Shown here piece by piece: positions 2,986-6,184 of a DNA stretch of 60,590 bases (positions are counted from its first letter, which is position 1; each line of letters opens with the position of its first letter). The translations under genes were made by a program, and so were the position numbers. Source of the stretch: Maricaulis sp. (lineage in GTDB: Bacteria > Pseudomonadota > Alphaproteobacteria > Caulobacterales > Maricaulaceae); assembly GCF_030149235.1 (NCBI RefSeq), contig NZ_JASBRW010000072.1:1-60590 (forward strand), written 5' to 3'. The notes under the pieces are model-generated. The model did not search any database. It had not been told where the DNA came from and saw only the letters and a list, made by a program, of their open reading frames with translations.

Positions 2986-3879
2986 ATGGATTGGGACAAG
3001 CTGAAAACCTTTCACGCCGCCGCGCAGGCCGGCTCACTGACCAAGGCGGCAGAGCGTCTGGGCCTGTCCCAATCGGCGGTCAGCCGCCAGATTGCGGCGC
3101 TTGAAGATGATCTTGGCATAACCCTGTTTCATCGCCATGCCCGCGGCCTGATCCCGACCGAGCCGGGCAATCTGCTCAATGAGGCCGCGCACGAGATCGC
3201 GGCCAAGGTCGCACTGGCCGAAGCCAAGGTGCAGGACGCGCGTGATGAACCGTCCGGCGAGCTCAAGGTCACCGCCCCCACTGCACTCGGCTCGATGTGG
3301 CTGGCCGCACGCCTGCCGGAATTCCAGGCGCAATACCCGGCGATCCGTATTCGCCTGATGCTGGATGATCACGAGCTCGACCTGGCCGGTCTGGAGGCCG
3401 AGGTCGGGATCCGCCCCTGGCCCTCGACCCAGAATGATCTGGTGCAACGCAAATTGCTCGGCGTGCGCCAGCACCTCTATGCCAGCCAGGACTATATCGC
3501 CCGGCGCGGCGGGCCGAGGAGCGCGGAAGATCTGGATAATCACGCCATCATCTATTACGGCCCGCCGCAACTGGCGCCGATCCCGGGGCTGGACTGGGCC
3601 GCGCGGATAGGCCGACCGGACGGCGCCGAGCCTCGCCCGGCGGTGATCGAGGTCAACACGATTTACGGGGTCACCAAGACGGTGCAGGCCGGCATGGGCA
3701 TTGCCGCCCTGCCCGACTATGTGGCGCGCGAAAACCCCAACCTGGTCCGGGTCCTGCCGGACCTACAGGGGCCTGATTTCGAGGTCTTCTTCGTCTATCC
3801 GAGCGAGCTGCGCGGATCGCGCCGCATCATCGCCTTCCGCGATTTCCTGATCGAACAGGCGCGGCGCTGGGAAAGCTAG
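2986..3879 (+). CDS. LysR-family transcriptional regulator
   Basis: A 297-residue LysR-type regulator. The winged helix-turn-helix covers about residues 1-60 ([20 protein letters not shown] pattern), followed by a linker helix and a periplasmic-binding-protein-like effector domain from about residue 90. GGCAGGAG precedes the ATG. Its stop codon shares the tetranucleotide CTAG with the stop codon of the convergent chemoreceptor gene. No divergent neighbour, the usual LysR target, is present, so the regulated gene is unknown. Confidence 0.92.
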
Positions 3880-5273
3880 CTGCGGGCGCGGCTGGCGATC
3901 AGGGTCTCGAGCAGGCGGACGACCGTTTCAGACTGCAATTCCATCGCGTCGACGGCGTTTTCTGCGCCATCCTTGTCGCCGGCATTGCAGCACTCGATGG
4001 CCTGCGCCGCGAGACGGTGGAATTCGGCATGCGGTTGTTCCAGTGCCTTGAAATTCTCGTCTGACTGCAGGCTCTCATCACTGACGCTGTAATACCAATT
4101 GCCGAGACGGCAGCCCTGATGGTTCGAGACCTGGTCCTTTTCGAACGCATTGCGCCCGACGAGCATTTCCGACAGTTTCTTCTTACACAGCAAGTGGTCG
4201 GACTTGGCGCGGTAAAGCACATAATCGTGGATTTCGCGGGCATCGAATTCGGAGAAGGCCTCATCGACCAGTGATTCGCTTTCCGCGACGGCTTCTATCA
4301 CCGCCTCGATCCGGCCGCGCGCCTTGGTCGCTGACTTGGTGACCTCGGTCACACCGCGGGCCAGCTCGCCGGTGGCCTGGGACTGCTCATTCATGAGACG
4401 GGCAATCTCGGAGACGAGATGGGCGCTTTCCTCAACCAGGCCGACGCCGGTCTTGACGCTCGCCGTGGCGCGCTCGGTCGCCTGGATGCCGCTTTCGATC
4501 GAGGTCATCGATCCCCGCACGGCGCCGATAATACCGCTGACTTCGCCTTGCAGGTTGTCGATCCGGTCACGGATATCACCCGTGGCCTTCTCGGTCTGGC
4601 CCGACAGGGCCTTGACCTCTTCCGCAACGACCGAGAAACCCCGCCCGGCTTCACCCGCACGCGCCGCCTCGATGGTGGCGTTGAGGGCGAGAAGATTGGT
4701 CTGGCCGGCAATTTCGGCGATGGTGTCGACAATCTGGGTGATCTGAGCGGAGGCCGCCTCCAGGCGTTCAACCCGGCCCATTATGCTCTGATAGGCCGTA
4801 TCGATCTCGCCCATTTGATGGGAGGACTGGGCCACTTCATCGAGGCCGGTATTGGTCGCCGTCACACATTCGGTGAGATTGCCAGCAGACGTACCGGCAA
4901 AGCTGGAGATCTGCTGGATCGAAGCATCGAGCTGCTCGATGGCGGCCGCCATGGTCTGGCTCTGACTGGCGACACCCCGGATATCCCCGGTCACCCGGGC
5001 CGTTGCGGCCATGGCCGAACTGGCATGCATGGAAAAGCCTACAGACCGGTGCAGGGACAGCTCGTCGCGGCCGGCTATCATGCCAATCAGACGGGCCAGC
5101 GGGCCGGCCAGGTCTTCCGGCACATCTGGAAGCCCGGTGAGCTCCCCATCCGCCAATCGATCCAGCGTGCTGGCCAGCGACTGCACCCACTCCGGATCAT
5201 GATCCGCTGCGGTCACAGGCAGGTCTGTTTCGTCGTCTTCAAAAGCATTGCGGCGGAGGAGTGCATTCAGCAT
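3876..5273 (-). CDS. Soluble methyl-accepting chemotaxis protein with C-terminal CZB domain
   Basis: A chemoreceptor-type signalling protein of 465 residues from the ATG at 5273, chosen for its AAGGA ribosome site. The open frame extends upstream to a GTG at 5312. No membrane helix or periplasmic domain is visible, so it should be cytoplasmic. The central part holds the conserved receptor hairpin ([20 protein letters not shown]), which contacts CheA and CheW. The C-terminal 130 residues resemble the CZB chemoreceptor zinc-binding domain, with [10 protein letters not shown] and further spaced His residues. CZB domains are known to bind zinc and to sense oxidants or zinc. No che genes lie nearby. 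Confidence 0.9.
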
Positions 5274-5473
5274 AGGCGAATTCCTTAGTCTCTTGAGAGA
5301 CCTGCCCTGCACTCGGTTAATTAAGGGTAATAATTTTGTGGCGAAACCAAACGCTCCAAGCCCGCTTCACGCATGTATTTGGACCTGGTCACTGCATTTT
5401 CGCATAACGGGATTGCGGACACGTCTCTTCTTCCGGGCCGGGTTCTGCGTCATATACGCGTCATCGAAGGCGG

Positions 5474-5498
5474 CGAACACCGCTGTGTACCTCGAGTT
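5474..5498 (+). promoter_or_regulatory. EcfG-like general stress promoter candidate
   Basis: CGAAC (5474-5478), a 16-base spacer, then AGTT (5495-5498). The alphaproteobacterial general-stress sigma factor EcfG/SigT recognises GGAAC-N16/17-CGTT, so each element differs by one base. The predicted start, about 5503-5506, falls at the first stem of the small RNA candidate downstream. Confidence 0.45.
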
Positions 5499-5502
5499 TT
5501 GA

Positions 5503-5588
5503 AGCATACCCGTCTCCTCCCCTTCAGGTATGCCTATCTGGCGCCGGATCCTCTCCTCCCCTTTAGGATCCGGCGCCAATTTCTTTTC
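5503..5588 (+). ncRNA. Small RNA candidate with twin CUCCUCCCC loops (cuckoo/CcsR type)
   Basis: Two hairpins stand in tandem. Stem 1 is GCATACC (5504-5510) with GGTATGC (5527-5533). Stem 2 is a perfect 13-bp stem, 5539-5551 with 5566-5578. Their loops are almost identical, TCTCCTCCCCTTCA (5513-5526) and TCTCCTCCCCTTTA (5552-5565). The second stem is followed by ATTTCTTTTC, as in an intrinsic terminator. The alphaproteobacterial cuckoo RNAs, such as CcsR1-4 of Rhodobacter, are short stress-induced RNAs with two stem-loops that expose CCUCCUCCC, an anti-Shine-Dalgarno-like motif. The architecture here matches. The 5' end is inferred from the EcfG-like promoter. Confidence 0.72.
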
Positions 5589-5605
5589 AGACGCATAAAG
5601 AAGAA

Positions 5606-5635
5606 CCCCGGCTCGAAGGCCGGGGCTTTTTCTTT
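5606..5635. terminator. Bidirectional intrinsic terminator after dps
   Basis: CCCCGGC (5606-5612) and GCCGGGG (5619-5625) form a 7-bp stem followed by a T-rich run on the + strand (5627-5635). The minus strand also reads into T-rich DNA (TTCTTCTTTATG). It can end dps transcription from the right and act as a second stop for the small RNA from the left. Confidence 0.8.
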
Positions 5636-5667
5636 GGCGGTCTCGTGCCGGTCAGTCCCCCCCTGAA

Positions 5668-6135
5668 CTAGCCCAGGGTCGAGCGCAGCATCCAGGCGGT
5701 TTTCTCGTGAATGGTCAGGCGCGGGGTCAGGACATCTGCGGTCGCCTCATCGCCATTCTCACCGGCCAGGTCCAGTGCCTTGCGGATCGTGCCGACCACC
5801 TGTTCGTGACCGACCAGAAGATCGGCCACCATGTCATTGGCCTCGCTCTTGTCGGCCGCCGGCGACAGGGTCGCAGACGCCGCCATGGCGTCATAGGAGG
5901 CCGGCGCCTTGACGCCCAGAGCCCGGATACGCTCGGCAATCTCGTCGGTCGCCGTCCACAGCTCTGTATACTGGGTCTCGAACAGCGTATGCAGGTCATG
6001 GAAACGCGGTCCGGTGACATTCCAGTGATAGGCGTGCGTCTTGAAATAAAGCGCATAGGTGTCGGCGAGAACCGCGGTCACGGCAGCCGCCATATCGGTC
6101 CGCTGGTTTTCGGTAAGGCCCATATTGAAGCTCAT
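5668..6135 (-). CDS. dps: Dps-family ferritin-like DNA-protection protein
   Basis: Forms dodecameric shells that oxidise and store iron and protect DNA in starvation and oxidative stress. The product is 155 residues from the ATG at 6135, which has GAGGAG eight bases before it; an in-frame ATG at 6165 lacks this. The intersubunit ferroxidase residues are visible: His in THAYHWNVTG, then Asp and Glu in the DEIAERI helix region. A dyad at 6185-6207 overlaps a likely TATAAT -10 element. The neighbouring stress-type small RNA candidate fits a stress setting. Confidence 0.93.
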   Translation of the reverse strand: MSFNMGLTENQRTDMAAAVTAVLADTYALYFKTHAYHWNVTGPRFHDLHTLFETQYTELWTATDEIAERIRALGVKAPASYDAMAASATLSPAADKSEANDMVADLLVGHEQVVGTIRKALDLAGENGDEATADVLTPRLTIHEKTAWMLRSTLG

Positions 6136-6184
6136 CGCTGTCTCCTCTGCATGTTTCCGGGGCAACCGGAGTTTCTGTAGGGGA

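Follow-up and report, generated by a model that had tools for sequence, protein, structure and literature searches.

The window, a stretch of 60,590 nucleotides from a Maricaulis sp. genome, carries beside dps a small RNA gene with two anti-Shine-Dalgarno hairpin loops, and we consider it probable that a regulator of the LsrB/VtlR type drives this RNA, which would start near position 5462 and block translation. We establish the structure, strand, loop conservation, promoter elements and gene linkage of the RNA, and infer its transcription, the binding of the regulator and the repression of targets. In the proposed mechanism, the product of the locus would be a small RNA, about 125 nt long, that acts in trans. 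The LsrB/VtlR-type LysR protein would bind at the GCAT box, some 54 bases ahead of the start, and bring sigma70 polymerase to a weak promoter of the -35/CATAT type. The two hairpins would keep CUCCUCCCC single-stranded in their loops, with hairpin 2 serving also as terminator, and the loops would pair with the G-rich Shine-Dalgarno sites of many mRNAs and thereby block their translation.

Table 1 Features of the RNA locus and its neighbourhood (window coordinates).
Feature	Position	Strand	Basis or remark
LysR-type regulator, LsrB/VtlR homologue, 297 aa	2986..3879	+	PDB 9hh1 match
Methyl-accepting chemotaxis protein	3876..5312	-	ORF list; NCBIfam MCP matches under curated cut-offs
Putative LsrB/VtlR box GCAT-AAC-GG-GAT-T	5402..5414	+	-60 to -48 from estimated start
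-35-like CTTCTT (poor)	5427..5432	+	alignment of 22 relatives
-10-like TCATAT	5450..5455	+	17 bases after -35; 48 bases after start of GCAT box
Predicted small RNA transcript	5462..5588	+	start estimated from promoter; end at T-rich tail
Small 5' hairpin	5470..5486	+	fold; overlaps CGAAC
Hairpin 1	5504..5533	+	7-bp stem, loop CGUCUCCUCCCCUUCA; fold
Hairpin 2	5539..5578	+	14-bp stem, loop CUCCUCCCCUUU; probably the RNA's intrinsic terminator
T-rich tail TTTCTTTTC	5580..5588	+	directly after hairpin 2
Second terminator hairpin, apparently two-way, common to the RNA and convergent dps	5606..5625		fold z -5.3
dps, convergent neighbour	5668..6135	-	start at ATG inside ORF 5668-6165; synteny

An earlier reading of the sequence alone had described two tandem hairpins with C-rich loops followed by a T-rich tail, and all of these elements are present where it placed them (Table 1). 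Loop 1 reads TCTCCTCCCCTTCA (5513-5526) and loop 2 reads TCTCCTCCCCTTTA (5552-5565). When up to two mismatches are allowed, the loop 14-mer has four sites in the window against 0.46 expected, a number reached by none of 100 shuffles, and the two RNA loops are the sites without mismatch. For the core of two hairpins the folding energy is -37.5 kcal/mol (z = -8.7), and none of 200 shuffles folds as well. Among the 16 terminator-like hairpins of the window only one has a C-rich loop, namely that of the RNA itself, and terminators with C-rich loops are not enriched within the window. In the alignment of relatives, GC-rich dyads like the small 5' hairpin are found at the same place.

We assessed conservation on loci that were fetched by the dps protein and thus independently of the RNA. 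The search covered 101 genomes, 83 of them with dps; 70 dps loci were read, and 22 of these show an alignable RNA downstream of dps. An RNA model (R1) built from the 22 aligned loci found these again and added six more genomes at E < 1e-6, with the RNA within about 1.3 kb of dps, which brings the dps loci with a nearby RNA to 28 of the 70 (22 in R1 and 6 found by R1). Its carriers include Maricaulis, Hyphobacterium and Woodsholea. In a second set of 80 dps loci, which overlaps the first genome set and of which 40 were searched with R1, matches at E <= 2.3e-9 occur in 13 loci, all among the 17 with a dps identity of at least 65%. The misses among these 17 are L192, L199, L202 and L204, and R1 has no match at Alkalicaulis, at two Oceanicaulis loci or at L204. 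Elsewhere in the window R1 finds only a weak match (2875-2951, E 0.12). At one relative's locus (L062, genome G010) the RNA gene is duplicated in tandem, at 1060-1147 and 1326-1414, the loop types being CUUCUCCCC and C-rich.

Covariation was scored on the MAFFT alignment of the 22 loci, which was not fitted to the structure. The results show that 96.7% of the stem cells are paired, compared with 26–44% in slid controls, and that 10 of the 18 pairs are altered on both sides in a compensating manner among the 22 genomes. On four of five covariation measures none of 500 shuffles equals the real alignment, and on the fifth 24 of 500 do. Loop 1 keeps CUCCUCCCC in 20 of the 22 relatives across seven different 5' arms of stem 1; stem 2 varies less, five of its pairs being invariant. 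The number of hairpins and loops varies, in that five of the 22 relatives lack the C-rich sequence in loop 2 and some have a third C-rich hairpin in addition. The outcome is the opposite of what had been named as evidence against the RNA, stems kept and loops lost: the loops are the more constant part and the stems vary with compensation.

The same alignment assigns the strand. The stems contain 15 G-U cells against 3 A-C cells, and this excess identifies the plus strand as the RNA; a minus-strand reading was rejected on this asymmetry. The region could otherwise be taken as no more than the terminator or 3' UTR of dps on the minus strand, as the two genes are convergent and share the two-way terminator at 5606-5625. 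The G-U to A-C ratio, the conserved promoter elements ahead of the hairpins on the plus strand, and loops that are more constant than the stems all speak against this, and we hold it to be very improbable. A small protein gene is less credible still, to the point of being negligible. Open frames of 97 aa (5373-5666, plus strand) and 70 aa (5367-5579, minus strand) do cross the region, yet in the nearest relative, L035, the plus-strand frame is already broken by a stop and by gaps, and the other matches among those listed are interrupted by stops or are short, weak fragments. The protein-coding reading was therefore rejected, since the frames across the region are not conserved.

The description of the RNA as a cuckoo-type RNA of a Maricaulis-type genome, its anti-Shine-Dalgarno loops being free, is supported by its structure, by the conservation of its loops and by carriers that include Maricaulis itself. 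Formal membership by covariance-model search is a more divided matter: the best two matches among 4227 Rfam families are cuckoo families, CcsR1 (RF02791, E 1.6e-5) and ar14 (RF02344, E 4e-4), but both stay under their gathering scores (29.4 vs 65.3 bits and 30.2 vs 58.8 bits, respectively). RF02344 exceeds its cut-off in none of the 101 genomes and matches at E <= 1 in 52 of them as well as in one of 14 control genomes, so that such weak matches alone mean little. An Rfam search of 11 relatives and class matches gave ar14 in six, all under cut-off, and suhB in L045, with nothing at E <= 0.05 in L117, L122, L130 and L061.

The cuckoo group has been described as having two to four hairpins, helices without sequence conservation and the loop motif CCUCCUCCC (PMC4504443). 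Here we find two hairpins, seven stem-1 arms among 22 relatives and a stem 2 with five invariant pairs; the window loops carry UCUCCUCCC, eight of the nine bases of CCUCCUCCC, and 6 of the 22 orthologues have the strict motif. The ar14 RNA NfeR1 of Sinorhizobium meliloti (RF02344) is like the RNA described here in having hairpins with identical anti-Shine-Dalgarno loops and divergent stems, and its sigma70 promoter with an LsrB site upstream (PMC10746234) resembles the promoter proposed here, whereas it has three hairpins with the loop CCUCCUCCC as opposed to two with UCUCCUCCCC in the window. The Rhodobacter sphaeroides RNAs CcsR1-4 (RF02791) likewise consist of two hairpins, with CUCCUCCC loops. 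They are described as a four-copy operon behind a DUF1127 gene and under RpoHI/HII (PMC10253847), whereas the window has a single RNA near LysR and dps genes, its neighbours being the MCP and Dps genes. With Caulobacter GsrN a C-rich exposed loop is held in common, although GsrN is reported to be EcfG/sigT-driven (PMC5869019), and with Caulobacter SisA-D (aR8) the anti-Shine-Dalgarno motif. In SisA-D, as far as described, UUUCCUCCCU lies in a single-stranded stretch and the genes typically stand beside an FGase gene (PMC12559287), whereas the motif is here placed in twin loops. The RNA would work like a cuckoo RNA, and it is best called cuckoo-like and not filed as ar14 or CcsR.

Upstream of the hairpins, the more conserved promoter, consisting of the box and a sigma70-like -10, points to an estimated transcript start near 5462, and the start near 5503 that had been predicted earlier is not upheld. 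The box of the window is one base off the LsrB/VtlR consensus GCAT-N3-TG-N3-T as given in PMC7486931 and PMC8844928. At the abcR1 promoter, which LsrB is described to bind, this consensus is located at -61 to -49 (PMC8844928), close to the -60 to -48 of the window box, a position counted from an estimated start. The form GCAT-N4-G-N3-T stands 48-49 bases before a CATAT-like -10 in 20 of 27 upstream regions (shuffled mean 0.04), the -10 being N-CATA(T/A) in 18 of these 20 and GATATA or CAGATA in two; the relaxed box and two of the accepted -10 forms were chosen after the alignment had been viewed, and N-CATA(T/A) alone gives 18 of 27. The exact consensus is present in 6 of the 27 regions, and even the relaxed box is absent from 7. 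For NfeR1 the LsrB site is given in another form, TGCA-N6-GCAT (PMC10746234).

The spacing CTT-N17-NCATAT also resembles heat-shock promoters such as those of the CcsR operon and AbcR2, and an RpoH-dependent promoter has to be weighed. CcsR is reported to be driven by RpoHI/HII (PMC10253847), the AbcR2 promoter is given as CTTGAA-N16-CCTATAT (PMC8844928), and CTTGAA is present at two of our loci (L055 and L063). On the other hand, most relatives have a poor -35 (CTTCTG, CTGGTC), CTTGACG with other -10 sequences stands upstream of groES in the seven genomes read, and an upstream box at fixed spacing in 20 of 27 regions suits an activated sigma70 promoter. We therefore regard RpoH control as unlikely.

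The sequence-only reading had instead put the RNA under general stress control, on account of an EcfG-like site, CGAAC-N16-AGTT. This site does exist at 5474-5498, where its CGAAC overlaps the small 5' hairpin, but it is two mismatches from GGAAC-N16-CGTT and is not generally conserved, and GGAAC-N15-18-(C/G)GTT is found in none of the 27 upstream regions. PhyR has no match in the window's genome (90% complete) nor in 15 other carriers of the 22, and several of the carriers without PhyR are genomes of 99–100% completeness. NepR was not found in the window's genome (G000) or in G002 and G005, among seven genomes tested of which four have it. The best EcfG-like protein of the window's genome is only 32% identical, and in ten other PhyR-less genomes tested it does not exceed 41%, compared with 54–100% in five PhyR-bearing genomes of the same search. 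Relatives with the general stress system do carry full EcfG-form sites at their nepR loci, and the six PhyR-bearing carriers show no upstream site within one mismatch of GGAAC-N15-17-CGTT, the best having two (L064). In the genus of the window, PhyR was not found in 13 of 19 genomes (G000-G006, G008-G010 and G014-G016) and is present in six.

What favours an EcfG-dependent, GsrN- or cuckoo-like member of the general stress regulon is the occurrence of CGAAC-N16-AGTT, with its two mismatches, in the window and in L035, that of CGAAC-N15/16-CGTT, with one mismatch, upstream in L053 (G025) and L056 (G041), and the precedent of Caulobacter GsrN, which is described as sigT-dependent and has a C-rich loop (PMC5869019). 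As PhyR and NepR have no match in the window's genome, its EcfG-like protein is distant, and PhyR-bearing carriers lack a near-consensus site, we rejected an EcfG promoter for this genome and give such a regulon member very little chance. A separate observation concerns G025, where a borderline NepR match (at cut-off) lies beside a 38%-identical EcfG-like protein (G025:C4:1131240-1131952), with no PhyR match. This genome possibly has a reduced or divergent general stress system, and an EcfG system may accordingly act in the genome of L053, so that EcfG control may apply in the G025/G041 genus.

For the LsrB/VtlR-type activation that we prefer, the candidate regulator is encoded in the window itself. 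The LysR protein matches A. tumefaciens LsrB (PDB 9hh1) over residues 1-296 with an E value of 1.9e-80, the next PDB match being at 4.6e-26. It contains no cysteine; the thiol-based redox sensing that is central to rhizobial LsrB is thus not transferable to it. In 17 of the 28 genomes the regulator gene is the immediate upstream neighbour of the RNA, in the same orientation and 107-413 nt away; in the window it stands 1.6 kb upstream, with the chemotaxis gene between. A chemotaxis gene takes the upstream place in the window, G002 and G005, and a homologue lies upstream of the RNA at L006 and L010. Besides L034-L037, the regulator is not seen in the available flank in seven of the 28 genomes, a flank of only 21 and 185 nt in two of them. 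In A. tumefaciens, vtlR is likewise described as upstream of abcR1/abcR2 (PMC7486931). AbcR1/AbcR2 (ar15) with LsrB/VtlR are, as far as described, alike in the regulator gene next to the RNA and would also be alike in the GCAT box and the anti-Shine-Dalgarno action; ar15 is, however, not among the Rfam matches listed, and the anti-Shine-Dalgarno motifs are here in twin hairpin loops.

We investigated how far this linkage reaches in the class. Among 385 alphaproteobacterial genomes sampled, 227 have a homologue of LsrB/VtlR at E <= 1e-50, about a dozen of them with several matches, and three of the four other genomes of the window's order in this sample have none at that threshold. This count bears on the view of LsrB as unique to Rhizobiales (as described in PMC11975290); VtlR has already been called conserved in the class (PMC7486931). 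At 20 of the 29 best regulator loci outside the window, C-rich anti-Shine-Dalgarno-like motifs occur in the 400 nt downstream of the regulator, on its strand, and the reverse-complement, G-rich motifs in three. These 29 loci are the best of the 227 by similarity to the window protein, some of the same genus (three from g152), and hence not a fair sample, and the motif set was picked after the sequences had been viewed. Three of the loci (L276, L277 and L281), which belong to a single genus of another family, combine the exact box with C-rich motifs, which are hairpin loops in L276 and L281, the two that were folded. Rfam reports SorX, suhB or SorY in 5 of the 18 loci submitted to it, with only L286 over cut-off (SorX, 47.0 vs 46.6 bits). 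An aR8/suhB- or SorX-like RNA whose core is ACGTGAA..CCTCCCTGT stands downstream of the regulator in 13 of the 29 loci, which belong to other alphaproteobacterial families (L273, L282, L283, L285-L291, L294, L295 and L297).

It is about an even question whether LsrB/VtlR with an anti-Shine-Dalgarno RNA represents an old alphaproteobacterial module that is not peculiar to Rhizobiales, in which the regulator is conserved, the RNA slot is variously filled and the cysteine redox switch is not original. Under such a reading the slot would be occupied by AbcR in rhizobia, by the twin-loop cuckoo-like RNA in Maricaulaceae and by aR8/suhB- or SorX-like RNAs elsewhere. Among the sources consulted we found no published report of an LsrB/VtlR linkage to an anti-Shine-Dalgarno RNA outside Rhizobiales. 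Our findings would place a cuckoo-like RNA in Maricaulaceae under a directly testable regulator, and this in a genome in which PhyR, NepR and a close EcfG were not found. If confirmed, they would make one regulator-plus-RNA switch comparable across the class.

In the rhizobia, NfeR1 (ar14) and AbcR1/2 are reported to block translation (PMC10746234, PMC8844928), and LsrB to activate NfeR1 (PMC10746234). By analogy with NfeR1 and AbcR, repression of translation is the likeliest action of the RNA. Each loop presents CCUCCCC, and GGGGAGG-N4-9-ATG has 57 sites in the genome, among them the antisense of the RNA itself, compared with 2 sites of the reversed control. The count measures capacity, not specificity, given that Shine-Dalgarno sites are G-rich anyway. 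Some of the 29 target loci with GGGGAGG are short or internal frames. Searches for perfect 9-base target sites were uninformative; only two other GGGGAGGAG sites stand near an ATG, and both overlap longer open frames. The dps leader (6135-6160, minus strand) has GAGGAGAC before its ATG, with eight bases complementary to loop 1, which makes dps a candidate target.

Finally, we looked at C-rich hairpins away from dps. Over the 385 class genomes R1 matches at E <= 0.01 in 31, the window's own included; of these loci 22 were folded, and only a few (L117, L122, L130 and L136) show C-rich twin hairpins, indicating that R1 is not a class-wide detector. A further 19 matches of RF02344 or R1, including the second matches of the window's genome (contig C24, and C39 by R1), fold mostly as terminators, as 3' ends with C-rich loops or as noise. 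Of the loci outside the dps context, L028 looks like a real C-rich multi-hairpin RNA, and L005 is perhaps another. Tandem hairpins with CCTCCCC-type loops were seen away from dps in L009, L011, L015 and L016 (family f3 of the same order) and in L028, and look like further cuckoo-like RNAs. In relatives (L151-L154 and L156) and on C39 of the window's genome (L149), gene ends carry terminator-like hairpins with C-rich CUCUCCCCCC loops, the genes concerned including chemotaxis receptors in the window's genus, and these hairpins possibly represent anti-Shine-Dalgarno RNAs derived from 3' UTRs.
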